Assembly: GCF_003668565.1 (NCBI RefSeq)
Contig: NZ_RCWJ01000002.1
Span: 372,001 to 436,000 of the forward strand
DNA length: 64,000 bases
Direction: 5' to 3'
Source of the DNA: Mycetocola zhadangensis
GTDB taxonomy: Bacteria > Actinomycetota > Actinomycetes > Actinomycetales > Microbacteriaceae
The translations under genes were made by a program, and so were the position numbers. Shown in pieces: positions 302-56,917 of this stretch (position 1 is its first letter; each line of letters starts with the position of its first letter). The notes beneath the pieces are model-generated. The model worked only from the letters and a program-made list of their open reading frames with translations, ran no database searches and was not told the DNA's origin.

Positions 302-1906
302 ATGACTGTGGCCGCCGGCTGGTACGACAACCCTGACGATATGACTACAGTGCGATTCTGGGACGGCTCTACATGGACATCCCAGATTCAGGCCAAAGCA
401 CCGTCGGCGACCACAGTCCCGCCCGGCTGGTACCCAGACCCTGAGATAACAGGTTCTGAGCGGTGGTGGGACGGCAATAGCTGGACTGCACAGGCCCGAG
501 CTCTGGACACGGGCGGGCAGCCCGCGCCGACGACGAACAGCAGGCCTGCAGCCTCGAGCCTCCGGCAGAGCATCCGCCCCATCGATAAACTCGGGAAGGC
601 CGACGCCCGGGACCTCGCTCAACAACTAACCTCGGAGAATGTAGAACTTCGCGCCGTCATCGACAAGCACGGTTCACGAGCGTTCGCCGACATCGACACA
701 TATCGAGCTGACGCCGAAGCCGCTGTGACTGCGACCCGTGACAGCGCGCATGCCGAGATCGCCGCTCAACGTGCAGCGGCCGACGCGGCCATCGCTTCCG
801 CCAACGGGCACCTCAATGAACTCCACAAACAAGTCGGCGAAGCGCAAGCCGCGCTCCAAAGCCTCCGTCAGCGCCACATCGACATCACCGACAGCATCAC
901 CTTGCAAGACGTCGGCCTGTTCGACTACGACCACCCCGCTCAGTCGTCAGCGAGCCTCGCGACCGAACTCGAAAGTGTCCGGTCCTGGATCAAGGGGATG
1001 ATCCGAGACAAACGCGCCGTCACGTTCGCCACCGGCTTCACCTTCAACGGCTCCACCGCTCAAGGAAAAAAGTTCATCAACGACATGTCCAAAGTCCTCC
1101 TTCGCGCATACAACGCAGAAGCAGAGAACGCAGTCAAGACGACGAAGGCCGGGAATCTCCAAGTAGCTCAGGCGCGCCTTAGCAAAGCCGCGGAACAGAT
1201 TGCCAACAGCGGCAAAATGATTAGCCTCCGGATTACCGACGACTACCACCGCCTCCGTCTCAAGGAGCTCGAACTCGCCAACACGCATCTGCTGGCTGTC
1301 CAGCGTGAACGCGAACTCGAACGCGAACGCAGAGCGGAACTTCGCGAACAGCAGAAAGCGGAAGCAGAACTTCGCCGGGAAAAGGAACGCCTGGAGAAGG
1401 AACGTTCCCACTACCTCTCCACTCTCGCCGCCCTAGAGGCTAACGGCGACGTCGAAGGAGCCGAACGAATTCGCGCACAACTCACCGACGTCGACCGGGC
1501 GATCAACGACGTTGACTACCGGGCCGCGAACATCCGCGCGGGTCATGTGTACGTTATCTCGAACATCGGCGCTTTCGGTGAGAACATGGTCAAGATTGGA
1601 ATGACCCGACGCTTGGAACCGATGGATCGGGTCACCGAACTCGGAGATGCCTCTGTGCCCTTCCGGTTTGATGTCCACGCCCTTTTCTTTGCGACAGACG
1701 CTGTCGGAATCGAAGCGTTCCTCCACCGGCGCTTCAGTGAACACCGCGTCAACAAGGTCAACCTGCGTCGGGAATTCTTCCGGGTCACACCCGCCGAGGT
1801 GCTCGAAGCGCTTAAGGAAGAATCCGTCGAGATTGTTGAGTTCACCACCGAGCCGGACGCGCCGGAGTACCGGGCGAGCTTCAATGACCCGATCGCTGTC
1901 GGTTAG
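302..1906 (+). CDS. DUF2510 x2 / coiled-coil DUF4041-like / T5orf172 (GIY-YIG-like) protein
   Basis: The start is taken at ATG 302, where a GAGGAAA-like ribosome site precedes MTVAAGWYDNP; this gives 534 residues. Residues about 5-26 and 39-62 are two copies of the short DUF2510 motif (GWYxxP...R(F/W)WDGxxWT), usual in actinobacterial membrane-associated proteins. Residues about 100-410 are charged and helical; a very Glu/Arg-rich coiled coil lies near 340-390, in a DUF4041-like arrangement. Residues about 416-500 (VYVISN...MVKIGMTRR...HRRFSEHRV...REFFRV) match the T5orf172/Mug113 branch of the GIY-YIG fold, found in phage and accessory proteins. No biochemical role is established for this architecture. 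It stands alone, with no clear operon partner. The domain calls are firm; a nuclease activity is inference. Confidence 0.85.
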   Translation: MTVAAGWYDNPDDMTTVRFWDGSTWTSQIQAKAPSATTVPPGWYPDPEITGSERWWDGNSWTAQARALDTGGQPAPTTNSRPAASSLRQSIRPIDKLGKADARDLAQQLTSENVELRAVIDKHGSRAFADIDTYRADAEAAVTATRDSAHAEIAAQRAAADAAIASANGHLNELHKQVGEAQAALQSLRQRHIDITDSITLQDVGLFDYDHPAQSSASLATELESVRSWIKGMIRDKRAVTFATGFTFNGSTAQGKKFINDMSKVLLRAYNAEAENAVKTTKAGNLQVAQARLSKAAEQIANSGKMISLRITDDYHRLRLKELELANTHLLAVQRERELERERRAELREQQKAEAELRREKERLEKERSHYLSTLAALEANGDVEGAERIRAQLTDVDRAINDVDYRAANIRAGHVYVISNIGAFGENMVKIGMTRRLEPMDRVTELGDASVPFRFDVHALFFATDAVGIEAFLHRRFSEHRVNKVNLRREFFRVTPAEVLEALKEESVEIVEFTTEPDAPEYRASFNDPIAVG

Positions 1907-2088
1907 GTACCACCCTCAAGAACAAAGGATCGTGTCGTGTCGGGGGTTCCGGTGACCTGTGGCGTTGCCTCCAGCGCCAGTTCTTCGAGAACAATCCGGT
2001 TTGCGGCAAAGCTCGACCTCGAGGTGCGCGCTCGCCTCCTCGTGGTCAGTAATGGCGCTGGCTCTGAGCACTAGCGAGCTCCGCTTCC

Positions 2089-2472
2089 ATGGTGGGTGCT
2101 GCCCCGCACTGGGGCGAGCCGAAAGTAACTCTCATCTCCTTTGTGATCTTGCACGCGGTGATTCGCTCCGCCGTCTCGCAGGGCCTGCAACGGCACGCTC
2201 TTTGGCATGAGGGCCGAGCAGTGCAGACGGCCGCTGCTGAGTCGCTCGAAAGCAGCGTTGAGCCGAGCAGCGAAGGCAACGACTGGACGCTCGATATTCG
2301 CGGAACCTCATACACGGTCCGCCCGCAGAGCATGGACTTATGGTCCGTCATGCTCGAGGGTCAACCCACTCACACCGTCCGGAGAGACGCTCGAGGATTC
2401 TTTGCAGACGGATCGTCCCGTCGTTTTGGCACGCTTGAGGAGGTCATTCGAGATGCTCGACGTGTCCGTTAG
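2089..2472 (+). CDS. Small hypothetical protein
   Basis: I do not recognise this 127-residue frame. The C-terminal half (about residues 65-127, from WTLDIRGTSYTVRP onward) looks genuinely protein-like: alternating beta-type residues and then an amphipathic end, ...FGTLEEVIRDARRVR. The first 44 residues are less convincing. A GTG at 2221 would give a shorter 83-residue protein starting just before the well-behaved part. There is no strong ribosome site at either start. The gene sits between two DUF2510-containing genes on the same strand, which is the only contextual hint. Confidence 0.45.
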   Translation: MVGAAPHWGEPKVTLISFVILHAVIRSAVSQGLQRHALWHEGRAVQTAAAESLESSVEPSSEGNDWTLDIRGTSYTVRPQSMDLWSVMLEGQPTHTVRRDARGFFADGSSRRFGTLEEVIRDARRVR

Positions 2473-2609
2473 ATGAACGTGGCGTCGACACGCGGGAGCG
2501 GTCTCATGTGCAGACTCTGGCTCTGCTCGTTCGCTGGAATAGCTTGATTCCCCACACTGGGGACGTTGGCTCTGCTGTCACTGGGTCTTGCGGGCCATAC
2601 GGTTTGTAT

Positions 2610-3011
2610 ATGAGTGATATTCGACCGCAGGCCGCGCCAGGCTGGCATTACGACTCCGCCGGTCTGCTTCGTTGGTGGGACGGGACACAGTGGGGGCCGT
2701 ACGCACCTCCGACGGGCACCACGCCGGCCGTAGCTACTGCGCCCGAGGCTCAAGGGCCGAAAGAACTCGCCGTCGCGTATCTCATGCTCATTTTTCTTGG
2801 CAGTTTCGGGGCTCACCAGTTCTATCTGAACCAACCGCTCAATGGCGCAATGGTGATTGTGCTCTGGTGGGGCGGCTGGGCCACGGCGTTTGTTGGCGTT
2901 GGAGTTCTCTTGATTATCGGTGTGCTGATTTGGTTCGTCGTGGACCTCTGCTTATTGCCCAGCTATGTTCGCGCGGCGAATGCTCGCGCGCTCGCCGTCA
3001 ATGCTGCGTGA
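2610..3011 (+). CDS. DUF2510 and TM2 domain membrane protein
   Basis: Start ATG 2610 (MSDIRPQ) is chosen because the upstream part of the frame has no protein character; this gives 133 residues. Residues about 10-30 are a DUF2510 motif (GWHYDSAGLLRWWDGTQW). From about residue 50 comes a TM2 domain: KELAVAYLMLIFLGSFGAHQFYLN, the GxHxFYL turn that defines the family, followed by a second hydrophobic segment around residues 90-118. TM2 proteins are small two-helix membrane proteins of mostly unknown function; the cytoplasmic DUF2510 extension is common in Actinobacteria. The open frame upstream to 2508 is probably untranslated. Confidence 0.85.
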   Translation: MSDIRPQAAPGWHYDSAGLLRWWDGTQWGPYAPPTGTTPAVATAPEAQGPKELAVAYLMLIFLGSFGAHQFYLNQPLNGAMVIVLWWGGWATAFVGVGVLLIIGVLIWFVVDLCLLPSYVRAANARALAVNAA

Positions 3012-3110
3012 GGTAGTTGTCCTCAACTCGGAAGCCAACCATGTGGCATCCGCTTCACTGCCTCTTGACACGTGGCGCGGCGCAGCCCAGGTTCCCGGCA
3101 GAATTGACCC

Positions 3111-4040
3111 ATGACCATTCCTCTCTCCGGGACCCAGTTCGAGCTCACCAGCGGCCCATACACCGCGACCATCGCCAGTGTCGGTGCCTCACTGCGCTCG
3201 CTGAAGCACAACGGCCGCGACCTCGTCGTGCCGTTCGACGCCGATGAGGTGCGCCCGGCGTTCCGCGGAGCAACCCTCGCGCCGTGGCCGAACCGCGTGG
3301 TCGACGGACTCTACAGCTTCGAGGGCACCGACTACGAGCTCTCACTCACCGAGCCGAAGCGGCACCACGCCCTGCACGGACTCGTCGCCTGGCACGACTT
3401 CATCGCCCTCGACGAGGCCGCCGACCGCGTCATGCTGGCCACCACGATCGAGGCGGAGACCGGCTACCCCTTCCGCATCCAAGTGCGCGTCGAGTTCGTC
3501 CTGAACGAAGACGGCCTCCACACCACCGTCGCCGCACGCAACACCGGCAACGCGCCCGCCCCGTTCGGCACCGGCCCGCACCCGTACCTCGTCGCCGGCG
3601 AGGGCACCGTCGACGACTGGACCCTCCTCCTCCCCGCCGAGCAGGTCCTCACGGTCACCGAGGACCGCCTGATCCCGATTAAGAAAGCGGATGTCGCCAC
3701 CGAGTCAGACGGAACCTTCGACTTCCGCAGTCCCCGCGTTCTCGGCGACACCTTCATCGACCACGCCTTCACCGGCCTCATTCGGGACGCGAACCGCACT
3801 GCCGAGGTGCAGGTCACCGCGCCGTCCGGCACTGGGGTGCGCATGCGCTGGGACTCCTCCTGCAAGTGGGTGCAGGTGCACACGGCCGACCAGAAGCCGG
3901 ACGCGCCGCTGCCCAGCCGCATCGGCCTCGCGGTCGAACCGATGACCTGCCCGCCCGATGCGTTCAACTCGGGCGAGGACCTGCTCGTGCTTCAGCCCGG
4001 CGGCGTCACCTTCGCGTCGTGGAGTATCGCCGCAATCTAG
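3111..4040 (+). CDS. Aldose 1-epimerase family protein (GalM-like mutarotase)
   Basis: The 309-residue length and layout fit the cytosolic galactose-mutarotase superfamily, which interconverts alpha and beta anomers of aldoses. Visible motifs are the early RxATLAPWPNRV segment, the catalytic-histidine region KRHHALHGLVAWHDF near residue 83, a second histidine in FGTGPHPYLVAG near residue 150, and the C-terminal glutamate motif AVEPMTCPPDAFNSG near residue 282. The start ATG is just after CAGAATTGACCC; the ribosome site is weak. The following permease is on the same strand, so sugar or amine import and processing could be linked, but nothing proves it. Substrate is unknown. Confidence 0.9.
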   Translation: MTIPLSGTQFELTSGPYTATIASVGASLRSLKHNGRDLVVPFDADEVRPAFRGATLAPWPNRVVDGLYSFEGTDYELSLTEPKRHHALHGLVAWHDFIALDEAADRVMLATTIEAETGYPFRIQVRVEFVLNEDGLHTTVAARNTGNAPAPFGTGPHPYLVAGEGTVDDWTLLLPAEQVLTVTEDRLIPIKKADVATESDGTFDFRSPRVLGDTFIDHAFTGLIRDANRTAEVQVTAPSGTGVRMRWDSSCKWVQVHTADQKPDAPLPSRIGLAVEPMTCPPDAFNSGEDLLVLQPGGVTFASWSIAAI

Positions 4041-4065
4041 CTTGCGGTGTGCGGGTGCCGGCCAC

Positions 4066-5526
4066 GTGGCATCCGCTCGTCTTATTGCGTCGTGGATTCG
4101 ATACGTAAGGAACTCTCTTGGAACCGCCCTGACCCGCAGACTTGGCGTGCCCGGCATCGTCTTCATGGTGATCGCGGCGGCCGCGCCGATCACCGTGGTG
4201 GCCGCGAACTTCCCGCTGATTCTCAGTGTGTCCGGATCGATCGGTGCGCCGCTGATGGTGCTCGTCGCTACCGTCGTGCTGCTGCTCTTCTCGGTCGGGT
4301 ATGCGTGGATGACGCCGCGGGTGCCTGACGCTGGGGCGTTCTACTCCTATGTGCATCGCGGGCTTGGGCGGCGTGCGGGGCTCGGAACCGCGGCGATCGC
4401 CCTGCTTTGCTACGTGCTGCTCACGGTGTCGATGATTTGTTACCTCGGGGTGCAGGCCGGAAACCTGATCGAACTGTGGACCGGGCTGCAGTTGCCGTGG
4501 TGGCTGATCTCCGCTGTAATGCTCGTGATCGTTGGGCTGCTCGGCTACCGCAGCATCGACCTGTCGGCGAAGGTGCTCGGCGTTGTGCTCGTGCTCGAGG
4601 TGATCGCGGTTATCGCGATCGACCTCGGGGTGGTGTTCTCCGGGCGGGAGTTGACGGCGGTGCCGTTCAGCCCGGTTGAGGCGCTCTCGGGTGCACCCGG
4701 CCTTGGGCTGCTGTTCGTTTTTCTCGGGTTCTTCGGGTTTGAGGCGACGGCGGTGTTCCGTAATGAGGCGCGTGATCCGGAGAAGACGGTGCCGCGCGCG
4801 ACCTATATCGCGGTCGTCTCGGTGGGCGTGCTGTACTTCGTTTCCTCGTGGTTGGTGATTTCGGGGCTCGGTGGGGGAGATGCGGTTGCCGCCGCGTCGG
4901 CGAACCCGGATAGCGTGGTTCGCGGTTTGGCTGGCGAGGTGATCGCTCCGATCGCCGCTGACATCGTGCAGGTGCTCGTCGTGACGAGCATGTTTGCGTG
5001 TGTGCTGGCGTTCCACAACATCGTCACCCGCTACCTCTTTACTCTCGGACAGCGCGGGGTATTGCCGCAGAAGCTCGCAGAGGTGCACTCGAAGCACCGC
5101 GCACCCTCACGTGCGTCGCTCTGGGTCAGCGCGATCACCTCGGTCGTCGTGGTGGTGTCGGCTCTTGCCCAGCTCGACCCGGTGGTTCAGATCTACACCT
5201 GGTACTCGGGCGCCGGCGCGGTTGGCGTTCTCTGGATGATGGCACTGACCAGCCTCGCGGTGCTCGCCTTTGGGTTGAAGCACCGCGGGGTGGCCGGTGA
5301 GGCGCCGTCGCGCTGGGTCACCGTGGCTTCGATTCTTGGCGGGCTCGGACTTCTTGGAGCGCTTGCGCTCGCCATATGGAACTTCCCGTTCCTGGTTGGC
5401 GGCCCGGTCGCGGCTGTCGTGTGGGGAGTGATTCTCGTCGGAGTGTTCGTCGGGGGTCTATTCCTGCCGACACGGAACGTCACTCCTTCAGAGGCGTCGC
5501 CAGTTCACGAAGAAGTTGCGAGTTGA
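4066..5526 (+). CDS. APC family amino-acid/polyamine permease
   Basis: This is an integral membrane transporter with about twelve hydrophobic segments. The N-terminal signature RRLGVPGIVFMVIAAAAP is typical of the APC superfamily (amino acid-polyamine-organocation), and FGFEATAVFRNEARDPEKTVPRA is the conserved stretch after TM6. Length from the chosen start is about 486 residues. The start is uncertain. GTG 4066 keeps the whole first helix; CTG 4129 or GTG 4148 are alternatives. An AAGGA near 4107 is too far from any in-frame codon to decide. The frame also opens inside the preceding epimerase, but that part is not protein-like. Substrate cannot be assigned. Confidence 0.85.
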   Translation: MASARLIASWIRYVRNSLGTALTRRLGVPGIVFMVIAAAAPITVVAANFPLILSVSGSIGAPLMVLVATVVLLLFSVGYAWMTPRVPDAGAFYSYVHRGLGRRAGLGTAAIALLCYVLLTVSMICYLGVQAGNLIELWTGLQLPWWLISAVMLVIVGLLGYRSIDLSAKVLGVVLVLEVIAVIAIDLGVVFSGRELTAVPFSPVEALSGAPGLGLLFVFLGFFGFEATAVFRNEARDPEKTVPRATYIAVVSVGVLYFVSSWLVISGLGGGDAVAAASANPDSVVRGLAGEVIAPIAADIVQVLVVTSMFACVLAFHNIVTRYLFTLGQRGVLPQKLAEVHSKHRAPSRASLWVSAITSVVVVVSALAQLDPVVQIYTWYSGAGAVGVLWMMALTSLAVLAFGLKHRGVAGEAPSRWVTVASILGGLGLLGALALAIWNFPFLVGGPVAAVVWGVILVGVFVGGLFLPTRNVTPSEASPVHEEVAS

Positions 5527-5711
5527 CGACGGCCAACGCCCGCTCTTTTCTTGCCGGAGTCGTCTCCCGATGGGGACTAATCGTGAGTCTGAGGGACTGG
5601 CGATGCCGACTCCGCGAATGCTGACAGTTGTAGGAATTATGCCCCTATGGGGGTGCGGGCTGCTCAAAACAGCGCGGGCAGAGTAGCGCGGAATCTCGAC
5701 AATAGCGACCA

Positions 5712-5897
5712 TTGAAACGGGAATTGAACGAACTGCTTGTCTTTGCGAAATTAAATAGGGCGCGGACAGCTTTTGATAACTTTCAATCTGTCTTTGTCAT
5801 TGTCTCAACTGAATACAGGGATTCTGAGGCCATTATGCAAATGCGGGTCTATCGACAATTAAATGTCAACACGGATCAAATCACTACCGTGCGGTAA
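5712..5897 (+). CDS. Possible small AT-rich hypothetical gene or gene remnant
   Basis: A 61-residue frame begins with MKRELNELLVFAKLNRA and contains FDNFQSVFVIVSTEYRDSEA. The amino-acid make-up (Asn, Phe, Lys, Ile, Gln) is unlike the surrounding high-GC proteins, and the DNA is about 40% G+C. The translation has plausible helical character, but no ribosome site is obvious. It may be the front of a broken gene whose tail is the fragment at 5923-6114 in another frame. I do not recognise a family. Confidence 0.3.
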   Translation: MKRELNELLVFAKLNRARTAFDNFQSVFVIVSTEYRDSEAIMQMRVYRQLNVNTDQITTVR

Positions 5898-5922
5898 ATC
5901 CCACCGCAGTTGTCGGGTCTGA

Positions 5923-6114
5923 CCGGCAGGGTATTACGACAATCTAGAGGCGGCGGATTCGCTATCGAACGACGGAATGGTCGCCTGCTGCAGGTACGTG
6001 CTCTCGGGGCTGAACACAGACCTCAAAAAGCTGGGGCGCCTGACCAACAGAGAGTTTGTAGCGGACCAGTTGCTTATCCTCCAGCAGCTCGGAGTGTGGC
6101 TACGGCTCACCTGA
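5923..6114 (+). pseudogene. Probable C-terminal gene fragment
   Basis: After an in-frame stop at 5920, this frame reads ...GYYDNLEAADSLSNDG, MVACCRYVLSGLNTDLKKLG, then RLTNREFVADQLLILQQLGV before a stop at 6112-6114. It looks like the well-ordered helical end of a real protein. A free-standing reading would start at ATG 5977 and give only 45 residues, with no clear ribosome site. The most economical explanation is the tail of a decayed or frameshifted gene, possibly the one beginning at 5712. The family is not recognised. Confidence 0.35.
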
Positions 6115-6224
6115 CTCCCAAGGTCGAGGCATAGTCCTCAAGTCGGTGTGCCCGGTGGCCCCCAGTCCGGGCTGTCATCAGCGCCGGTCCGCGAGGTTCG
6201 GCCCGCCGTCGATACGATGGCCGA

Positions 6225-7406
6225 ATGCGCCTGATTCGAGCCGGTCTGCCCGCCGCCGTTGCCGCACTCCTCTGGCTCGTGAGCGGAGGCCTTGAGCTTC
6301 TCGGTCGGCAGACGCTCTCCGGTCCGAAGGGACACGTGCTCTCGCTGGTTGCGCCGGAGACGATCCCCGTGCAGGAACTCACGGCACCCGCGCCGTGGAG
6401 TTTCCTCCTGATCGTGCTGTCGATGCTCGCGATCTTCGCGGCATACGCGGGTCTCGCGGCAATCGTGCGTCGGGAGCCCCTCGATAACGCTGCCGGGGTG
6501 GTCGCCCCGTACTCAGGTTCGGTTGCGGGCCCTTCCCAGCAGCGATTAGGTAACACTGCAACTGCGTTTGCCGCCTACTGGCTGTGCGCCGTGGCATCCG
6601 GATTTCTGGTTCCTGCGATTCCGGTCGTGATTGAACTGCTTAACGCGGTCGTCGAGCAGCAGACCCCGATCGGCCTGGTCGCCGAGAGAGTCGCCGGGGC
6701 CGCGCAGTGGGGTCTGCTTTACGGCTGGATTCCGGCCGCGGTCGCCGTGGCGATCGAAACGATGGGCAACTCGGATCACCGAGTTTTCGCGCGCCGGATG
6801 ATCGCGATTCCGGCCGCTGCGCTGTTCCTCATCGCCGCGATCGGATTGACTCTCGCGGCCCCGCAGGCGCACGCGGCAGTGCAGGCGCAGATTCCGACCG
6901 GGCCGGCACCTGAGCCGATTCCGACCGGAACGCCCGTGCCGGGTGTTGCGCCGGGAGAGTGGCAGGCCGATCCGCTGTGGTGCACGGCCGGTCAGCTGGA
7001 AATGACAGCGGGCACTCCTGACGCGGCAACGGGGCACCGCGCGCTCGTGATGCGCGCGACCAACGTCAGTGATGCGGCGTGCATCCTGGAGGGCTATCCG
7101 GATGTCGCGTTCGCCGACGTCTACAGCAACGCCCTCGATGTGAGTGTCGACCACGGAGGTACGATGCTCGGCAGCGATCCGGGTGTTACTCGTATCGAGG
7201 TTGAGCCCGGCGCGGCCGTCGTGTCGACCCTGGGCTGGAGCGCAATGCCCACCGCGGGGCTGGAAACCGCTGGCTGGCTTCACCTTGCGGCGTATGCCGG
7301 AGCGCAGCGGCAAATGGTCACCGTCGAGACCGACATCACCGGGGGCAGCGTGTCGGTAACGGCGTGGGCGACGCCGCCGACTGAGACAGGCGAAGTCTCA
7401 GACTGA
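6225..7406 (+). CDS. DUF4232 domain protein with membrane-spanning N-terminal half
   Basis: The protein has 393 residues. Hydrophobic segments near residues 8-25, 58-80, 110-140, 155-180 and 195-215 make the first half an integral membrane region. A Pro/Thr-rich linker ([16 protein letters not shown]) leads to an extracytoplasmic DUF4232 domain from about residue 245, with [12 protein letters not shown]...[22 protein letters not shown]. Two cysteines, in WCTAGQ and AACILEGYP, could form the family's disulfide. DUF4232 is common in secreted or surface actinobacterial proteins and has no known reaction. A TACGAT hexamer lies exactly 6 nt before the ATG, so the mRNA may be leaderless. Confidence 0.85.
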
Positions 7407-48331: not shown

Positions 48332-48473
48332 CCCGGTCGCTTCGGCTGTGCCCTCTGCCGGTCGAGCGCACCGGAAATCGACACTCGGGCCCTGCGGGAA
48401 TTTGCGCGGTGATAATGGAAGGTGCCCGTCCGCGCATTCGGTGCGGCGGAGCATCCGTTCGGAGTTGTCCCGT

Positions 48474-49241
48474 ATGACCGCACAGTTTTCCCGCTACGTC
48501 GCGCTCGGCGACAGTTTCACAGAGGGTGTCGGCGACGAACTCCCGGACGGGCGGGTGCGTGGCTGGGCTGACTTTGTTGCACTCGGCCTTCAGGCCGCGT
48601 CGAATGAACCGATCGGTTACGCGAACCTCGCGATCCGCGGCCGCAAGCTCGGCCCGATCATCAGCGAACAGCTTGAACCGGCGCTCGCACTGAGCCCCGA
48701 CCTGATGACGTTCAACGGCGGTGGCAACGACATCATGCGGCCCCGCGTCGCGATCTCCTGGGTGGTCGACGAGACACTCAAGCTCGTTCATCGTGCGCTC
48801 GAGCTGGACGGGCTCCACGTCGTCGTGCTGGCCGGCGCGAACCCGTCCCGGCACCTGCCGATGGGTGGACTCATGCAAAAACGCGGGGACCTGCTCGCTG
48901 ACGCCGTCCTCACCGCGCTCGGCTCAACCCCTGTCACCCTGGTGAACAACTGGGCCGACGAGACGCTCACCGACATCCGTTACTGGTCTCCCGACAAGCT
49001 GCACCTCAACGCGCTCGGCCATGCCCGCGTCGCCTCGAACGTGCTGACAGCGCTCGACATCGCCGTGCCAGAGGAATGGGGCGTCGAGAATGTCGCTGAG
49101 GCGAGCTCAGGCCAGCGCGCACGCAACACGGCCAGGTACTACCGCGAGCACGTGCTGCCGTGGATCGGACGCCGTGTCACCGGGCGGTCCTCCGGCGACG
49201 GGCGAGAGCCGAAACGCGCCACTCTCCTCCCGGTCGACTGA
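48474..49241 (+). CDS. SGNH/GDSL hydrolase
   Basis: 255 residues from ATG 48474. Block I is YVALGDSFTEGVGDE (Ser about 14), block II AIRGRKLGPII, block III FNGGGNDIMRP and block V DKLHLNALGHARVA with the catalytic Asp and His. All four SGNH residues are present. The C-terminal stretch (about 200-255) is basic. There is no signal peptide, so it is probably cytoplasmic; it may be an esterase or lysophospholipase-like enzyme. It is a single gene between nnrE and the AAA operon. Confidence 0.9.
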   Translation: MTAQFSRYVALGDSFTEGVGDELPDGRVRGWADFVALGLQAASNEPIGYANLAIRGRKLGPIISEQLEPALALSPDLMTFNGGGNDIMRPRVAISWVVDETLKLVHRALELDGLHVVVLAGANPSRHLPMGGLMQKRGDLLADAVLTALGSTPVTLVNNWADETLTDIRYWSPDKLHLNALGHARVASNVLTALDIAVPEEWGVENVAEASSGQRARNTARYYREHVLPWIGRRVTGRSSGDGREPKRATLLPVD

Positions 49242-49344: not shown

Positions 49345-50229
49345 GTGAGTCTGAGCGACGTCACCGTGTCGAGCACCGCGCGCCGCAGCATCCGCTCGTT
49401 CTCCGTCTGGGTGTGGGTGCTCGGAACCATCGTGCTCTTCGTCAGCGCACTCAACACCTTCGATAACGTCGGTATCGGAGACGACGGGTTCGGCATCATC
49501 GGCGACAACGAGTACCCGTGGGAGATCGAGAACCCGCCGGTGTTCGAGGCGAACGGGAACACCTACTCCGGCACCGGCAGCGGCGTCATCCGCATTCCGC
49601 TTGAGGAACACCAACAGGAACCGTACGTGGCGCAACTGGTTGCAGGCGAGTACGTCGACCTGAGCATCACCCCTCCAGAGGAGCTCGCGCAGCCGGCGAA
49701 CGACCGGGCGTGGCCGGCCGACGTCGGAGACCTGTGGGACACCGAGGACCAGTTGCTCGTCCTCCCGCGCGACGGCGACCTCGAACTCTGGGTGCGAAAC
49801 GACGGCGATTGGGAGTTCACACTCACGAAAGCCGAGGTCGACGAAATCGACGACGGGTTTGCCAGCGGCACCTCCAACGCGCTGCTTGTCTACAAGGGCG
49901 ACGCCACAAGCGCCCGGTTTGTGCACAAGGGTGAAGGCATTTTCTTCGTGACCATCCAGACCCTCGACGGTGAGAGCGACCGCCCGATCATCGAGTCCGG
50001 CGAGGTCAACGAACGTTTGTCCTGGGACCCAACCGACGCCGTGTACATCACCATCGAGGCCGACGACGGCGAGGGTGCGTGGTCGATCGATATCGATGAA
50101 CTGGCGACGGATGCTCCGGCGGAGCCCGAACCGGACCCAGCGTCGACCGAACCCGCAGACCCAGCGGCGTTACCCGCAACTCCCGCATCGCGAACCGATG
50201 CTCCCGGCACCACGAAAGGAACGCCATGA
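49345..50229 (+). CDS. Membrane-anchored beta-rich protein leading the AAA/radical-SAM operon
   Basis: 294 residues from GTG 49345, which has GGGGGAGGAAACG in front; the earlier frame overlaps the preceding gene and is rejected. One transmembrane helix lies near residues 18-38 (FSVWVWVLGTIVLFVSALNTF). The remainder is an acidic, beta-type region (about 60-255) with repeated DG turns (LPRDGDLELWVRNDGDWEF), and ends in a Pro/Ala/Glu-rich low-complexity tail. The soluble part is probably outside. I do not recognise a family. Overlap of 4 bp with the AAA gene ties it to that system. Confidence 0.85.
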   Translation: MSLSDVTVSSTARRSIRSFSVWVWVLGTIVLFVSALNTFDNVGIGDDGFGIIGDNEYPWEIENPPVFEANGNTYSGTGSGVIRIPLEEHQQEPYVAQLVAGEYVDLSITPPEELAQPANDRAWPADVGDLWDTEDQLLVLPRDGDLELWVRNDGDWEFTLTKAEVDEIDDGFASGTSNALLVYKGDATSARFVHKGEGIFFVTIQTLDGESDRPIIESGEVNERLSWDPTDAVYITIEADDGEGAWSIDIDELATDAPAEPEPDPASTEPADPAALPATPASRTDAPGTTKGTP

Positions 50230-51869
50230 GTTTCACAGACACCCTCGACCAGGCATTCAAAGCACGGCTGCCGCTGCTCTACATCGAGACGAGCGAGGAG
50301 GTGCGCGCGCTCGAGCAAATCACCCAGGCAGCCCAGGGCCTTCGCCGCCCGCGCGGGGTCTGGACCTGGACAAGCGCCACAGGCCTGATCGGCCCAGACG
50401 GCAAGACGATCAGCAACACGAACACGCCGGTGCGCGCCCTCGACCACATCGTCACCATCCCCGAAAACGCCGTCTTCGTTTTCTGCGACCTGCACGCCTA
50501 CTTCGGTTCAGAGCAACGCCCAGGCGACCCGGTCATTATCCGCAAGGTTCGCGAGGCGGTGCTTGAACTTCGACACGCGGATGCCGCCCGTGCGCTGGTA
50601 GTGACGGCTCCGGTGCGATGCATTCCGCCTGAACTGGACAAACTGTCTCACCTGCTCGAGTTCCCTCTCCCGGACACCACCGAACTGCACGCCATGCTCG
50701 ACACCATGATCGAGAACAACACGTCAAACGGCGGACGGATCCGGGTGAACGCCGACGCCAAAACTCTCGAGAGCCTCGTTCAGGCGGCCCGCGGCCTCAC
50801 CATGAGCGAAGCGGAAAACGCGTTCGCCCGCGCCATGGTCAACGACGGCGAACTGACCGCAGACGACATCCCGGTCGTGCTCGACGAGAAACGCCAGATC
50901 GTCAGCAAGTCAGGCCTGCTCGACTTTGTCGTTGACACCCTCGACCTCGACAGTGTTGGCGGGCTCAACAACCTCAAACGCTGGTTGAGTCGCCGCGACG
51001 GGTCCTGGCTGGGCGAGGCTGAACAGTTCGGCCTGCCATCACCCAAGGGCGTGCTTATCACCGGTGTGCCCGGCTGTGGAAAGTCGCTCACCGCGAAGGC
51101 GATGGCCGCTTCATGGGGCCTGCCGCTGCTACGCCTCGACATCGGCCGGATCTTCTCCGGGCTCGTCGGTTCGTCCGAACAGAACCTCCGCACGGCGCTC
51201 GCCACCGCCGAGGCCGTTGCACCGTGCATCCTCTGGGTCGACGAGATCGAGAAGGGTTTCTCGAACACGACAGGCACAGGCGACTCCGGCACCACTGCTC
51301 GGGTCTTCGGCTACTTCCTCACCTGGATGCAGGAGAAGAAGCACCCGGTGTTCGTGGTCGCGACGGCCAACAACATCGACTCGCTTCCACCCGAGTTCAT
51401 GCGCAAGGGCCGCTTCGACGAGATCTTCTTCGTCGACCTGCCGACCGCCGTCGAACGCCGAGCGATCTGGAGCATCCAGCTGGCGTCGAACGCCACTGGG
51501 GGCAACGGCCTCGCCGGCATCGACGCCGCAGACATTGAAAAACTCGTCGCGGTCAGCGACAACTACTCGGGCGCCGAGATCGAGCAGGCCGTCATCGTTG
51601 CCCTGTACGAGGCCTTCGCCGAACGCCGACCGGCCACAGCGGCTGACCTCACCGAAGCGATCACCAACATGATTCCACTCGCCGTGACGCAGGCGGAGGA
51701 AGTGCAGGCCATTCGTGACTGGGCGGAGGTTCGCGCGGTCCGGGCAACCGGCAGCGAAGACATCGATCCGACCGAGGACGCCGCCGAACTCGCGGGCGTC
51801 GGCGCTCCGACCGACGCTGCCGGTGCCGGTCTCTCGTCTCGCCGCGGTGGACGCACCGTGGACTTCTAA
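50226..51869 (+). CDS. AAA+ ATPase, Ycf46-like
   Basis: 547 residues. The N-terminal domain (about 1-230) starts [26 protein letters not shown], as in Ycf46-type proteins. The C-terminal AAA module has Walker [13 protein letters not shown] (about residue 280), Walker [11 protein letters not shown] (about 335), sensor-1 VVATANNID and the arginine finger in MRKGRFDE. Ycf46 proteins occur in cyanobacteria and plastids near ycf35 and DUF2997 genes. The last residues are [11 protein letters not shown], nearly the same tail as in the helix-hairpin-helix protein four genes on. Intact catalytic residues imply an active motor. Confidence 0.93.
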
Positions 51870-51919
51870 ACCGGCCGACAGCATCCGCTTTCGAAAAAAT
51901 CAGCAACCGAGGATCACGC

Positions 51920-52132
51920 ATGACAGACAAGCAGCTCATAGTGCAGGTGCGGCCTGACGGCACTGTGCACGCCGAAACCATCGGGATGTACGGCGAGGAG
52001 TGCCTCGACTACATCGCCGTGCTCGAGAACCTGCTCGACGCCGAGGCCACCGAATCGTCGTTCACCGAGGCCTACGCGCAGGTCGCCGCCGAGCAGCACA
52101 CGACGACTTCCACCTGGGACGGCGTGCGATGA
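51920..52132 (+). CDS. DUF2997 domain protein
   Basis: 70 residues. LIVQVRPDGTVHAETIGMYG followed by EECLDYIAVLENLLDAEA matches the short DUF2997 pattern: a beta hairpin with xDGxV, a G-x-x-G-x-x-C turn and one helix. The conserved cysteine is Cys28. Ribosome site is the GAGGATCACGC stretch before ATG. It overlaps the radical-SAM gene by 4 bp (ATGA). In cyanobacterial genomes DUF2997 lies next to ycf35-type genes; the small size suggests a substrate or carrier peptide for the neighbouring enzymes (inference). Confidence 0.88.
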   Translation: MTDKQLIVQVRPDGTVHAETIGMYGEECLDYIAVLENLLDAEATESSFTEAYAQVAAEQHTTTSTWDGVR

Positions 52133-52884
52133 CACTGCTCGCGTCCCCGCGACTGCGCGGCGAGCACGGCACTTCTGAACTCGGCACGGTGGAACTCGGC
52201 ACGGTCGAACCGGTCGAGCGGCCGGGCGATACCCTCCGCTGGTCGCGGTTTCTGCCGTCGACGGCGGCCGAGGGTCCAGGGCTGCGCTCCGCACTGTGGG
52301 TGCAGGGCTGCAGCGTGCGCTGCCCCGGGTGTTTCAACCCGCACCTCTGGGCCGCGATCGGTGGAACCATCGATCGCACAGCCGATCTGGCCGACCGATT
52401 TGTGACGGATGCTGTCACAGCGGGCGTCGAGGGAATCACACTTCTCGGCGGCGAACCTTTCGACCAGGCAGCCGCGCTCGCGACGATCGCTGACGCATTC
52501 CGTGCGGCCGGGCTCACCGTGATGACCTTCACCGGCTATCGGCTCGAGCTTCTCACCGAGTGGGCGGCGACCCGGCCGGACATCGCCAGGCTGCTCGCGG
52601 CCACCGACCTGTTGATCGACGGGCCGTACCTGCGAGCGCAGCCCGACGCCGTTCGACCGTGGCTCGGCTCAACGAACCAGGGCATTCGCGCACTCACTCC
52701 GGCATACGCGGACGAGGTCGCACGGATCGAACGCGAGGGTGGGCTCGACCGGCTCGAGATTCGAATCCACCCCGACGGGCAGGTCGACGTAAATGGCTGG
52801 GCTGACGCCGCCGCCCTCGAAGAACTGCTGCACGACCTTGGCCCGCGCCAGGACCGCCCGACAACGAAAGCGAGACGCGCATGA
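52129..52884 (+). CDS. Radical SAM / 4Fe-4S activase-like protein
   Basis: 251 residues from ATG 52129. After about 35 polar residues comes LRWSRFLPSTAAEGPGLRSALWVQGCSVRCPGCFNPHLW: the CxxxCxxC motif (about residues 65-72) binds a 4Fe-4S cluster and SAM. LLGGEPFDQAAAL is the GGE motif, and TGYRLELL is typical of the PflA/NrdG activase-like class. LIDGPYL... and the loss of a full C-terminal half suggest a short activase-type enzyme. No ribonucleotide reductase or glycyl-radical gene is nearby, so its target is probably within the operon. It overlaps both neighbours by 4 bp. Confidence 0.9.
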   Translation: MTLLASPRLRGEHGTSELGTVELGTVEPVERPGDTLRWSRFLPSTAAEGPGLRSALWVQGCSVRCPGCFNPHLWAAIGGTIDRTADLADRFVTDAVTAGVEGITLLGGEPFDQAAALATIADAFRAAGLTVMTFTGYRLELLTEWAATRPDIARLLAATDLLIDGPYLRAQPDAVRPWLGSTNQGIRALTPAYADEVARIEREGGLDRLEIRIHPDGQVDVNGWADAAALEELLHDLGPRQDRPTTKARRA

Positions 52885-53381
52885 GCGTGACACTGGTTCT
52901 TCTTCCCATAGCCCTCGCTGCCGCAGCCGCTGCCGGAGGTGTCGGAGTGGCTGGCGCCGTACACGCCGCCAAAAACACCGATGACGTCGAGGCTGGGCCG
53001 ACACCGGCCGTTCGGGTGCGCACGCGCATGAAAGACAGCACGCTGCTGGCCGACGCGCTCAACAACCTCGGCGCCACAGCCGTCACGGTGACCCGGTCGA
53101 CGGTCTCAGCACAGGTCGACGATGTGCTGTTGACCATGACCCTCAGCGACGACGGCATCTGGGAAGCCCACATCGAGAGCCTCACCGGCCAGGTCGTCAC
53201 CGAAGCGACGGCTGCCGAGCTCATTGCACGGCTCGACGCCGAATACGCCGCCGGAGTGCAGCAGGCGGTCGCCGAGAAGATCCGACTGAGGGCCGCGGAC
53301 TCCGGCTTCGACCTGGTCTCAGAGACCCGCGACGTCGACGACACCGTCACCATGGTGCTCAACGTGCGCGCGGAGGCGTAG
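52881..53381 (+). CDS. Membrane-anchored Ycf35/DUF1257-like protein
   Basis: 166 residues. A hydrophobic N-terminal helix (about 3-28, TLVLLPIALAAAAAAGGVGVAG) anchors it, unlike the soluble cyanobacterial relatives. The rest follows the Ycf35 plan: VRTRMKDSTLLADALNNLGA, a short two-stranded middle (DVLLTMTLSDDGIWEAHIE), then a helix YAAGVQQAVAEKIRLRAADSGFD and a closing strand TVTMVLNVRA. I recognise the family by these parts rather than by strict motifs. It overlaps the radical-SAM gene and precedes the helix-hairpin-helix gene by 8 bp. Function is unknown. Confidence 0.78.
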   Translation: MSVTLVLLPIALAAAAAAGGVGVAGAVHAAKNTDDVEAGPTPAVRVRTRMKDSTLLADALNNLGATAVTVTRSTVSAQVDDVLLTMTLSDDGIWEAHIESLTGQVVTEATAAELIARLDAEYAAGVQQAVAEKIRLRAADSGFDLVSETRDVDDTVTMVLNVRAEA

Positions 53382-53389
53382 GCGTCACC

Positions 53390-54265
53390 ATGTCACAGTC
53401 CTCGTTCCAGCCCCGAGCGGTGCCGCCGCGGCCACCGCTCGTGTGGCTCCTCGGCGCGAGCTCCTGGCTCCTGCTCGTGCTCGTGCCGGCCGGTGCCCTG
53501 GCCTGGCTTGGCTTCGCGATTCTGGCGGCGATCGGCAGGCGACGCTCCTGGTGGATCGCCGCCATCGTGTACGGACTTGCCGCCATCGTCTTCGCGCAGC
53601 TCGACTATCCTCTCGGCGATATCTCGCAGGGAGTGCTGTTTCTGGTCTCGCTCGTGCACGCGATCGGCGCGAACCCGACCTGGCTGAACCTGCTTTGGGG
53701 TCGCAGGGAGAACGGTCAAAACCTGCTCGGCAACAGGACTCCCGTTCGGGCTGCTGCCGGCCCCAGGCAGCGGGCCGCAGCCCTCTCACCGGAGGAGGAT
53801 CGGCTGCTCGGCGGCCCGGGCATTGCGAGATCCGACTATCTCGCCGAGCCGGCGCAGGCGCCAACCGCTCGACGAAAACGGAAAACACGGGCTGAACGCC
53901 GCGCCGAGGAGGCCGCAGCGCGTTCCGAGTCCCGGGTGACGGCTCTTTCGGACGGCGCTTCCGCCCGTGGCACTGCCACGGCGGCGGCTCTCGCGCCGGA
54001 GCGGTCAGCGCAGGACTCGGACGTCGAGCTCATTGACGTGAACACGGCGAACCAGCGCGCGCTCGCGAAGCTTCCTGGCCTCGACCGCGGTACCGCCAAG
54101 GCCGCGGTCACCGAACGATCGAATCGCGGCGGGTTCGCCTCACTCGAGGACTTCGCCTCGACGGTTGGACTGCAGCCTCACGAGATCGTGCGGCTGCGCA
54201 ACGCGGCATTTTGTTCGCCCCGCCCGCGTGCGCAGCGCAGCTTCGGTCGCCGCGTTGACTTCTAA
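53390..54265 (+). CDS. Membrane protein with C-terminal ComEA-like helix-hairpin-helix
   Basis: 291 residues. Three hydrophobic segments fill about residues 18-100 (WLLGASSWLLLVLVPAGALAW; WIAAIVYGLAAIVFAQL; VLFLVSLVHAIG). A basic, Ala/Arg-rich disordered stretch follows (about 110-205). The end is a ComEA/HhH1 domain: IDVNTANQRALAKLPGLDRG, then TAKAAVTERSNRGGFASLED, which usually binds DNA or proteins. The last residues RSFGRRVDF repeat the tail of the operon's AAA ATPase (GGRTVDF). No competence genes are near. Start ATG 53390 overlaps nothing and has no strong ribosome site. Confidence 0.82.
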   Translation: MSQSSFQPRAVPPRPPLVWLLGASSWLLLVLVPAGALAWLGFAILAAIGRRRSWWIAAIVYGLAAIVFAQLDYPLGDISQGVLFLVSLVHAIGANPTWLNLLWGRRENGQNLLGNRTPVRAAAGPRQRAAALSPEEDRLLGGPGIARSDYLAEPAQAPTARRKRKTRAERRAEEAAARSESRVTALSDGASARGTATAAALAPERSAQDSDVELIDVNTANQRALAKLPGLDRGTAKAAVTERSNRGGFASLEDFASTVGLQPHEIVRLRNAAFCSPRPRAQRSFGRRVDF

Positions 54266-54364: not shown

Positions 54365-56917
54365 TTGCCAACATTTTTCGGCCCAGCCGGCTCCGGCAGC
54401 GAATCGTTCGACGAGTTCCTTGCCCGTTACCTGCAGGGACAGCGTTCCGCCCAGTCGGGACGCACCATCGACATGACCAAGCTGCTCAGCCGCCGCTCGC
54501 ACGCGGTGCTCGCTGACGCAGCCCGCTACGCCATCGAGCACGGCCACGCCGAGGTCGACGCGCTGCACATCCTGCACGTCCTGGTCGAAACCGAACCGAT
54601 TGCCCAGGCCATCCGCGCCGGCGACGGTGACTCCGCCCAGATCGCCGATGCCGCTGAGCAGCGACTCCCGGGTAAGACCGACGACGAGATGGTGGTCTCG
54701 CCCGCTCTCACCTCGGCTGCGCAACGCGCCCTGCTCGACGCACACCAGGTGGCGCGAGCATTCGGCTCGACCTATATCGACCCTGAGCACCTTTTCTTCG
54801 CCTTCGTGGTGAACCAGGAGGCTCCCGTCGGCCAGTTGCTCGCCGCGTTCGGTGTCACTCCGCAGTCCCTGCAGGCCGGTCATGAGGCGGCTCGCCAGGA
54901 ACAGGCATCCGCTGGTTCGAAGGCCTCAAGCGAGACCCCGATGCTCGACCAGTTCGGCACCGACCTGACCGAACGTGCCCGGGACGGAAAGCTCGACCCG
55001 GTGATCGGACGCGCGGACGAGATCGCTCAGACGCTCGAGATCCTTTCGCGCCGCACCAAAAACAACCCGGTGCTGATCGGTGAAGCCGGTGTTGGTAAGA
55101 CCGCTGTTGTTGAGGGCATCGCTCGAGCGATTGTCGAGGGCGATGTGCCCAGCCTGCTCGAGAACAAGCGGGTCATTTCGCTCGACCTCGCGTCGATGGT
55201 CGGCGGCACCCGCTATCGTGGCGACTTCGAGGAGCGACTCACCAAGCTGATGGGAGAGATCACCGCTCGCAAGGACGAGCTGCTGATCTTCATCGACGAG
55301 CTGCACACGGTTGTCGGTGCCGGAGGTGGCGGTGAGAGCGGCGGAATGGATGCCGGAAACATCCTCAAGCCCCGGCTCGCCCGCGGCGACCTCAACATCA
55401 TCGGCGCCACGACGCTCAAGGAGTATCGGCGCATCGAAAAGGACTCGGCGCTCGAGCGCCGGTTCCAGCCGGTGCAGGTGGACGAGCCGAGCGTTGACGA
55501 CGCCGAACTCATCCTGCAGGGACTGCGCGGCAGCTACGAGGAGTTTCACGGTGTGAGCTACACCGACGAGGCGATTCGCGCGGCTGTCGATCTGTCGGCC
55601 CGGTACGTCACCGACCGGTTCCTGCCGGACAAGGCGATCGACCTGATCGACCAGGCCGGTGCCCGCATGCGCCTGCACCGTGGTCCCATCGTCGATACCA
55701 GCGAGCTGCGCGCCGAACTCGCCACACTCGAAGCCGGGAAGAACACGGCGGTCGCCGCGGAGAAGTACGAGGACGCGTCGCGCATTCGGGACGAGATCGA
55801 GGCGTTGAACGCACAGATCGCATCCGCTGAGTCGCAAGGAACGGCATCCGCTGGAAAAAACGTGATCGGCGAGAGCCAGATCGCCGACATCATTTCGCGG
55901 GCGACCGGGATCCCGGCGAATCGCATCACTCAGAGCGACCGTCAGCGCCTCGGCTCCCTCGAAGCCGACCTGCACACCCGTGTGATCGGGCAGGACGACG
56001 CGGTCACGTCGATCGCGAAGGCCGTTCGACGCAACCGCACCGGCATGGGCGACCCGAGCCGACCGGTTGGGAGCTTTCTGTTCCTCGGGCCGACCGGTGT
56101 GGGCAAGACCGAGTTGGCCAAGGCGCTCGCGTTCTCGCTGTTCGGGAATGAGTCGGCCATGCTGCGCTTCGACATGAGCGAGTTCGGTGAGCGGCACACG
56201 GTGTCCCGACTCGTCGGTGCCCCTCCCGGATACGTCGGTTACGACGAGGCCGGGCAGCTCACCGAACGTGTGCGCCGTAACCCGTACTCGGTGATCCTGC
56301 TCGACGAGATCGAGAAGGCGCACCCCGACGTGTTCAACCTGCTGCTGCAGGTGCTCGACGACGGTCGCCTGACCGACGGGCAGGGTCGCACCGTTGACTT
56401 CCGCAACACAGTGATCATCATGACGTCGAACATCGGCTCGGAGTTCCTGGCCAGCCGAAGTGGAGCCCTCGGCTTCATCGCTGACGCCGCGAACGACAGC
56501 ACTGGCTTCGGTTCGGAGAAGGCGCTGCGCGACCGAGTGATGGGCAAACTGCGCGAGGCCATGCGCCCGGAGTTCCTCAACCGGATCGACGAGGTCGTGC
56601 TGTTCCGCAAGCTCGCTGCCGAGCAGCTGCACGAGATCGTGCGCCTGCTGCTCCGCCAGACCGCTGCGCGGCTCGACGCCCAGTTGATGTCGCTCAACGT
56701 CAGTGACGAGGCCATCGACTGGATCGCGACGCACGGGTACGAGCCCGAGTTCGGTGCTCGCCCGCTGCGCCGCCTGATTCAGCGTGAGGTCGACGACCGT
56801 ATCGCCGGCCTTATGGTTGAGAGCGAACTGGCCGCAGGGACCACGATCGAGGTCGGGCTAGTCGGCGGCGAACTGGTGGTTTCCTCGAACGCGGCGGAGC
56901 CACAGCTGGCTGCGTAA
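54365..56917 (+). CDS. Clp/Hsp100 AAA+ unfoldase (ClpC/ClpB-like)
   Basis: 850 residues with TTG start after GGAGGT. An atypical N-terminus ([26 protein letters not shown]) precedes the Clp N-domain (about 35-180). The first AAA has GEAGVGKT (about 235) and IFIDELHT. The middle is a short UVR-like coil (about 455-485, [21 protein letters not shown]), as in ClpC, not the long ClpB arm. The second AAA has GPTGVGKT (about 575), LLDEIEKAH and the usual GYVGYDEAG. Whether it docks ClpP is not clear. The HAIR site says HspR. It follows the AAA/radical-SAM operon directly. Confidence 0.93.

Follow-up and report, generated by a model that had tools for sequence, protein, structure and literature searches.

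Ycf46, Ycf35, and DUF2997 are long-standing families of unknown function from cyanobacteria and plastids; what do their relatives do when they are united in one cassette outside photosynthesis? The question is raised by a locus at positions 49345-54265 of the 64-kb window analyzed here (the whole stretch of 64,000 nucleotides, positions 372,001 to 436,000 of contig NZ_RCWJ01000002.1), which belongs to the 3.32-Mb genome of Mycetocola zhadangensis. There, a radical-SAM enzyme and a helix-hairpin-helix membrane protein with an HHH_3 domain (HHH protein) are added as partners, and such cassettes also occur on plasmids. Our preferred reading, held tentatively and with somewhat less than even confidence, is that this inherited cassette encodes a membrane-associated AAA+ remodeling machine, on which HHH proteins would dock as adaptors or substrates through a short C-terminal tail that they share with the motor. 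The genes and tails in question are the following.

49345..50229, + strand: P0001, membrane or exported protein with a single hydrophobic segment (residues 18-36) followed by a long hydrophilic portion; accessory, outside the conserved five
50226..51869, + strand: P0002, Ycf46-like AAA+ ATPase with the C-terminal tail GGRTVDF
51846..51869, + strand: codons of the AAA tail GGRTVDF plus stop (stop codon 51867-51869)
51920..52132, + strand: P0003, DUF2997 protein of 70 residues; G14, G25, and C28 invariant
52129..52884, + strand: P0004, radical-SAM enzyme, Fer4_12; nearest to glycyl-radical-enzyme activases (NrdG, PFL-AE)
52881..53381, + strand: P0005, DUF1257/Ycf35-like protein with a hydrophobic N-terminal segment (residues 5-23)
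53390..54265, + strand: P0006, membrane protein with a C-terminal HHH_3 domain (residues 213-270) and the tail FGRRVDF
54242..54265, + strand: codons of the HHH tail FGRRVDF plus stop (stop codon 54263-54265)

Conservation of the gene set across phyla

A scan of genomes, one per species, with an alignment of the AAA family returned at least 588 stretches with at least 564 relatives; the sample was limited to the best 80 of these, a choice that biases it to near kin. These 80 and 15 further loci form a set of 95, to which family profiles were applied and whose members were assigned to taxa by record title; L022, from the same genome as L008, was excluded from the co-occurrence count, the tail counts, the distance test, and the comparison of tail with context. 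Five families (AAA, DUF2997, DUF1257-like, radical-SAM, and HHH) adjoin one another, in varying order, in Actinomycetota, Bacillota, Melainabacteria/Gastranaerophilales, and one betaproteobacterium. All five are present in 51 of the 60 loci that have at least 4.5 kb on both sides, a count in which near relatives are favored, and in 70 of 94 when cut contigs are counted too. The nine exceptions consist of three scan loci (L039, L089, and L092) and six hand-picked plasmid or phage loci; of the latter six, L105 and L107 have a gene annotated as DUF1257 that our profile missed and no HHH gene. Within the 80 scan loci, the cassette is frequent in records of Melainabacteria/Gastranaerophilales and Bacillota. 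The same five families are borne by plasmids of Paenarthrobacter (two) and Rhodococcus (one), and core parts of the set recur in predicted viral contigs and cyanobacterial plasmids.

The pairwise distances of the five families are also correlated (rho of 0.50 to 0.78, compared with a maximum of 0.39 in 300 label permutations per pair) over 21 loci, those among 28 hand-picked members of the 95 that are represented in every one of the five alignments. Clustering of neighboring genes, from which five loci were left out, brought out no sixth universal partner. The survey of neighborhoods thus bears out the co-conservation on which the initial annotation had staked its case and excludes the opposite outcome, genes that do not travel together. 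That annotation had also presented the combination as peculiar to an actinobacterium, which it is not, given its occurrence in Bacillota, Melainabacteria, and a betaproteobacterium and that of core parts on cyanobacterial plasmids and in viral contigs; there is nothing special about an actinobacterial setting. The operon is one of a class of little-studied five-gene sets occurring in many bacteria, and a literature search whose coverage excluded most subscription journals found no description of the cassette.

A C-terminal tail shared by AAA and HHH proteins

The ends of P0002 and P0006 conform to a single motif, R-x-[VILM]-[DE]-[FYWLIVM]-COOH, and they are the only 2 of the 609 ORFs (open reading frames) in the window to do so. 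Scored strictly, with ends bearing one or two extra residues (RALDLA, RIVDFDL) taken as nonmatches, the tail is found in 75 of the 86 AAA proteins retrieved at E<1e-200 and in 78 of the 95 retrieved at E<1e-100. A glycine precedes the arginine in all 75 of the former (75/75), the acidic residue is D in 67 and E in 8, and the final residue is mostly F; several of the 11 nonmatches are near variants, such as GGRIVDFDL. HHH proteins carry the tail in 93 of 94 cases, with G (56), E (29), or another residue (8) before the arginine and with D in 92 and E in 1. The other cassette families are practically devoid of it (DUF2997, 1/79; radical-SAM, 0/81; DUF1257-like, 0/80), and outside the five families only 2 of 7079 ORFs of at least 60 codons have it, both of about 310 codons and near the cassette in L097 and L098.

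At the genome level, where the patterns used miss some codons, the DNA pattern G-R-x-hydrophobic-[DE]-x-stop gave 7 matches in the genome of the window versus 7 for the reversed control; two of the former are P0002 and P0006, and the remaining five end in TGG (three) or in E or N (two). In three other genomes, the tailed in-frame ORFs of at least 100 codons are cassette AAA or HHH proteins, plus one 205-codon frame in G545. This distribution suggests that the AAA and HHH proteins may use the same tail to dock with each other or at a shared site. One could argue instead that the tail is merely a structural feature conserved at the end of AAA proteins and that its resemblance to the HHH end is coincidental, as AAA proteins tailed with no HHH match nearby would allow; yet HHH proteins with differing N-terminal parts are tailed almost without exception and the background is as low as stated above, which makes this explanation hardly credible.

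The company kept by tailed AAA proteins was tabulated with L118 (the cassette of L094), L121 (the contig of L120), and AAA ORFs not closed in their locus omitted. In the 95-locus set, near-duplicates retained, the AAA protein is tailed in 67 of the 74 loci with both radical-SAM and HHH genes, in 3 of 6 with radical-SAM only, in 3 of 5 with HHH only, and in 5 of 9 with neither. A scan of viral contigs, in which the best 80 of 370 loci were kept along with near-duplicates (e.g., L133-L135 and L194-L197), gave a tailed AAA protein in 1 of 14 radical-SAM-positive loci, none of which has an HHH match, versus 23 of 63 with no radical-SAM or HHH match nearby. In the loci that we take to be cyanobacterial, the AAA protein ends in QR[ML]EF in 12 of 17, which is similar to the motif but shorter by one residue; a weak DUF1257-type match (E of 1e-4 to 4e-3) lies just downstream in 14 of 17, and no radical-SAM match was found within the 4.5 kb examined. 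Judging from these viral and cyanobacterial patterns, the tail does not track the radical-SAM enzyme.

Two loci are reduced. L092 (Sanguibacter hominis) and L075 (a metagenome-assembled genome labeled Bordetella) have kept AAA and HHH alone; the HHH protein of each retains an intact tail, and the acid is gone from that of the AAA protein (GGRKVVF and GGRALTF). This pair of loci, of which one comes from a stretch of 12.5 kb, favors a direct relation between the AAA and HHH proteins.

Among the viral contigs, the predicted phages L128 and L184 (7000-11300) have a cluster of AAA, RecA-like ATPase, DUF2997, radical-SAM, and DUF1257-like genes, the RecA-like and DUF1257-like assignments being made by eye; there is no HHH match, and the AAA protein is untailed. 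In L146, L163, L165, and L188, a tailed AAA protein is accompanied by two frequent neighbors of about 270 and 110 residues, the shorter of which shows a DUF2997-like G..C motif, by eye only.

Inheritance and organization of the block

In the window, the block sits between two genes that lie outside the system:

48348..49241, + strand: P0008, left flank, GDSL-type lipase/acylhydrolase gene
54365..56917, + strand: P0007, right flank, Clp-type AAA+ gene

Of six genomes of the genus, three (G000, G534, and G538) carry the whole block, and in G534 and G538 the six genes have the same neighbor on either side as in the window. In the other three (G535, G536, and G537), P0008 and P0007 are directly adjacent, 133 to 222 bp apart, and these genomes contain no DUF2997 and no full-length AAA match. 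Since the flanks adjoin and both proteins are missing there, the block has been gained or lost whole (three present and three absent among six congeners). DUF2997 is uncommon in this group: at the levels of genus, order, and phylum, it is found in 3/6, 2/149, and 3/396 genomes, respectively, with the genome of the window counted, and it scores over the cut-off in 2 of the 396. The empty site was inspected for an insertion scar, and nothing was found but a short match in G536, which takes in the final 6 bases of the HHH gene and hints weakly at a deletion.

The six ORFs were confirmed in the window, all on the + strand, with 4-bp overlaps at 50226-50229, 52129-52132, and 52881-52884 and gaps of 50 bp (51870-51919) and 8 bp (53382-53389). 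Their description as a single unit therefore agrees with their positions and spacing and is backed, apart from spacing, by the presence or absence of the whole block in congeners. A scan for promoters and terminators gave 0 promoters and 5 terminator-like sites, compared with a mean of 3.5 (standard deviation, 1.9), which is not clearly above chance. The operon does comprise six genes as first described, but the conserved set does not: relatives of P0001 (tblastn, E <= 1e-3) were found, among the set searched, only in Microbacteriaceae and one Arthrobacter locus, and the gene at 49345 is best seen as a lineage-specific extra.

Components of the cassette

P0002 contains an AAA domain (PF00004, 3.6e-30 with Pfam) and is a classical AAA protein with Walker A and B, the sequence GVPGCGKS (Walker A) lying at residue 280 and a further Walker element at 335. 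It shares 44 to 89% identity (best segment) with the AAA proteins of the 80 kept loci and 46 to 48%, over about residues 5-510, with those of L211-L227, which we infer to be cyanobacterial Ycf46; the label of Ycf46-like AAA+ ATPase is thus upheld. In the phylum of G539, 74 of 117 genomes have an AAA relative at E <= 1e-60. L075 encodes, on the minus strand (1320-3476) and near its AAA-HHH pair, another AAA protein with two matches to the AAA profile. PMC7496141 names slr0374 as Ycf46, places it in a stress operon, and cites Jiang et al. (2015) for a reduction of EcaB activity on its inactivation; PMC5940233 describes plastid losses of ycf35 and ycf46, and PMC10954446 assigns the SGI1 antitoxin ATPase to the SpoVK/Ycf46/Vps4 group.

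The identity of P0003 as a DUF2997 protein (PF11211) is secure, with an E value of 5e-12 and 45.9 bits versus a Pfam cut-off of 24.1, and G14, G25, and C28 are invariant across 28 aligned members. A 70-residue protein with invariant glycines and cysteine might itself be the substrate of the radical-SAM enzyme or a carrier of the radical, receiving the radical or a cross-link, as the initial annotation had partly envisaged, and a DUF2997 match lies near the radical-SAM gene in 14 of the 14 radical-SAM-positive viral loci (L133-L135 being near-duplicates). However, the same residues are retained in loci without a radical-SAM match (L010 and the cyanobacterial plasmids L228-L231), so their conservation is independent of that enzyme, and we regard this role as quite improbable.

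The relationship of P0005 to DUF1257 is remote. P0005 itself gives no match to DUF1257 (PF06868) up to E=1, and only one of 24 members of its family does, at 0.0026; on the other hand, an hhalign comparison of the family with three proteins of DUF1257 type, of which PF06868 recognizes two at E <= 0.01, gives a probability of 92.6% (E of 4.7e-07). The Ycf35/DUF1257-like label therefore holds as a profile-profile similarity and fails as a direct family match. Our own DUF1257 profile recovers the annotated DUF1257 gene on a Pseudanabaena plasmid at 3e-10, but its seeds were P0005, a protein of L007, and the DUF1257-type protein of L010, and because the last is among them, such matches offer weaker support and are not independent proof.

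The cyanobacterial "cluster g," which PMC4284462 gives as DUF2997-ycf35 (DUF1257)-fed7, resembles the cassette in placing DUF2997 and a DUF1257 protein beside an iron-sulfur protein, and AAA relatives exist in the phylum. It differs in that its iron-sulfur protein is a ferredoxin, whereas that of the cassette is a radical-SAM enzyme, and in that the cassette has a hydrophobic N terminus on its DUF1257-like protein and adds tailed HHH membrane proteins. On a Pseudanabaena galeata plasmid (L228, 1583-7527), GrpE and Hsp70 genes immediately precede DUF1257, and two other genes are followed by DUF2997 and AAA, an order that hints at a link between the DUF1257/DUF2997/AAA triad and chaperones. In L010 (G181, a 5.9-kb contig), positions 1582-3541 encode AAA, DUF1257-type, and DUF2997 proteins without a radical-SAM or HHH match; RadC-like and MazF-like ORFs, recognized by eye, adjoin them, and a mobile element or contamination is possible.

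P0004 matches Fer4_12 at 2.5e-30 and falls slightly under the Pfam radical-SAM cut-off. Its CxxxCxxC motif (C61-x3-C65-x2-C68) is invariant in 28 aligned relatives, all of which (28/28) match the NrdG and PFL-AE models, confirming the earlier description as a radical-SAM, activase-like enzyme. P0004 shares this domain class and motif with NrdG and PFL-AE, but its NrdG score of 86.9 bits is below the equivalog cut-off of 126.1, and it remains under the curated cut-off of every NCBIfam model that it matched. Moreover, the genome of the window has 0 matches to NrdD (PF13597) and Gly_radical (PF01228), the only two glycyl-radical-enzyme families searched. A simple NrdG assignment was rejected on this ground, and P0004 is probably not the activase of a conventional glycyl-radical enzyme in its own genome.

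Glycyl-radical-enzyme activases recognize an R-V-x-G-[YF] loop in their partners, and by analogy the radical-SAM enzyme might recognize and modify the C-terminal tails of the AAA and HHH proteins. The activase profiles of all 28 relatives, a genome in which the enzyme seems to need some other substrate, and the prevalence of the AAA tail in loci with both radical-SAM and HHH genes (67/74) all speak for such a modification. Nevertheless, the viral counts (1/14 with a radical-SAM gene versus 23/63 without) run the other way, the smaller groups of the 95-locus set show no trend (3/6, 3/5, and 5/9), and L010, on its 5.9-kb contig, and L110 are tailed without a radical-SAM match. Action on the tailed proteins, another suggestion of the initial annotation, is thus possible but not favored, and we consider it improbable; the stricter notion that the radical-SAM enzyme makes the tail is weakened by the viral loci.

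The HHH_3 domain (2e-10 in P0006, Pfam) is found in 32 of 35 HHH proteins, GYF_2 in 2 of 35, and zinc-ribbon parts in a few, and there are weak matches to T2SSK and PsbU. Hydrophobic segments are present in 34 of 35 HHH and 21 of 24 DUF1257-like proteins, in 2 of 28 radical-SAM proteins, and in none of the AAA (0/31) or DUF2997 (0/28) proteins; the membrane partners announced by the first description are therefore real, in the sense of hydrophobic, probably membrane, proteins as judged by hydropathy. Like ComEA-type proteins, the cassette HHH proteins combine a hydrophobic N-terminal part with a C-terminal HHH_3 domain, but they have the tail and the AAA and radical-SAM partners in addition, and P0006 scores 28.1 bits with the comE model, below the ComEA cut-off of 152.35. 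As many as seven HHH-profile matches occur in one locus (L091), where seven tandem ORFs (1296-6338), one of them short and all of them tailed, lie upstream of the radical-SAM and AAA genes.

A membrane-tethered system for DNA handling or defense, in which the HHH protein would bind DNA and the motor would act on it, draws some support from the HHH_3 domains and the subthreshold comE match, from relatives on plasmids and phages, and from the patchy presence of the cassette. Against it, PADLOC run on the six proteins gave only generic AAA matches (IetA, TRIP13, and mads_8) and weak viperin matches, several Gastranaerophilales loci lie beside housekeeping-like genes such as those for ATP synthase subunits (by eye), and folds of the HHH_3 kind are also found in proteins that are not known to bind DNA, in keeping with the weak T2SSK and PsbU matches. 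We give this proposal a low probability; a known defense system was rejected because PADLOC returned nothing specific.

Working model

We return to the preferred reading of a membrane-associated remodeling machine. The AAA protein would be the remodeling motor, presumably hexameric, and the tail a docking tag within the system. The HHH proteins, with their varied N-terminal parts and up to seven copies, would be adaptors or substrates through which membrane or other cargo reaches the motor. The binding site for the tail would be on the AAA protein itself, which is most likely, or on its DUF1257 or DUF2997 partners. Membrane anchoring of the complex would fall to the DUF1257-like protein, and a redox or radical step would come from DUF2997 together with the radical-SAM enzyme (in cyanobacteria, a ferredoxin). 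p97/Cdc48 has cofactors that bind its C-terminal tail, and it resembles the cassette in having a motor of the same superfamily and a short C-terminal peptide as the docking site proposed here; the tail sequence is unlike, however, and in the cassette a second protein bears the same tail.

Several observations weigh against this reading. The 80 genome loci are the best of at least 564 relatives and so are tilted to near kin, the DUF1257 assignment is remote, and membrane placement derives from hydropathy alone. The many viral AAA proteins that are tailed with no HHH or radical-SAM match nearby (23/63) imply that the tail has some role without HHH, the cyanobacterial QR[ML]EF ends fall outside the motif as defined, and the loss of the tail acid in L092 and L075 is compatible with more than one model.

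A bolder version, which we consider rather unlikely, is a self-contained tail code. A single C-terminal peptide, confined almost entirely, across the genomes searched, to the AAA+ motor and its membrane HHH partners, would direct these partners to a common receptor, and the activase-class radical-SAM enzyme would work within that complex, its target being the tail or DUF2997. If true, it would describe a protein-remodeling machine under radical-chemistry control, of which cyanobacterial and plastid Ycf46/Ycf35 would be ferredoxin-linked cousins. The five-residue motif recasts the question of what Ycf46 does as one of binding, and it does so with nonphotosynthetic hosts at hand.

A different setting for the motor and the radical-SAM enzyme is found on plasmid pTRESU01 of Treponema succinifaciens (L104, 6348-8503), where a radical-SAM gene and a Ycf46-like AAA gene lie within a cluster of contractile-injection type (VgrG/Pvc8 family and baseplate protein V); the AAA protein there terminates in RKLEM.

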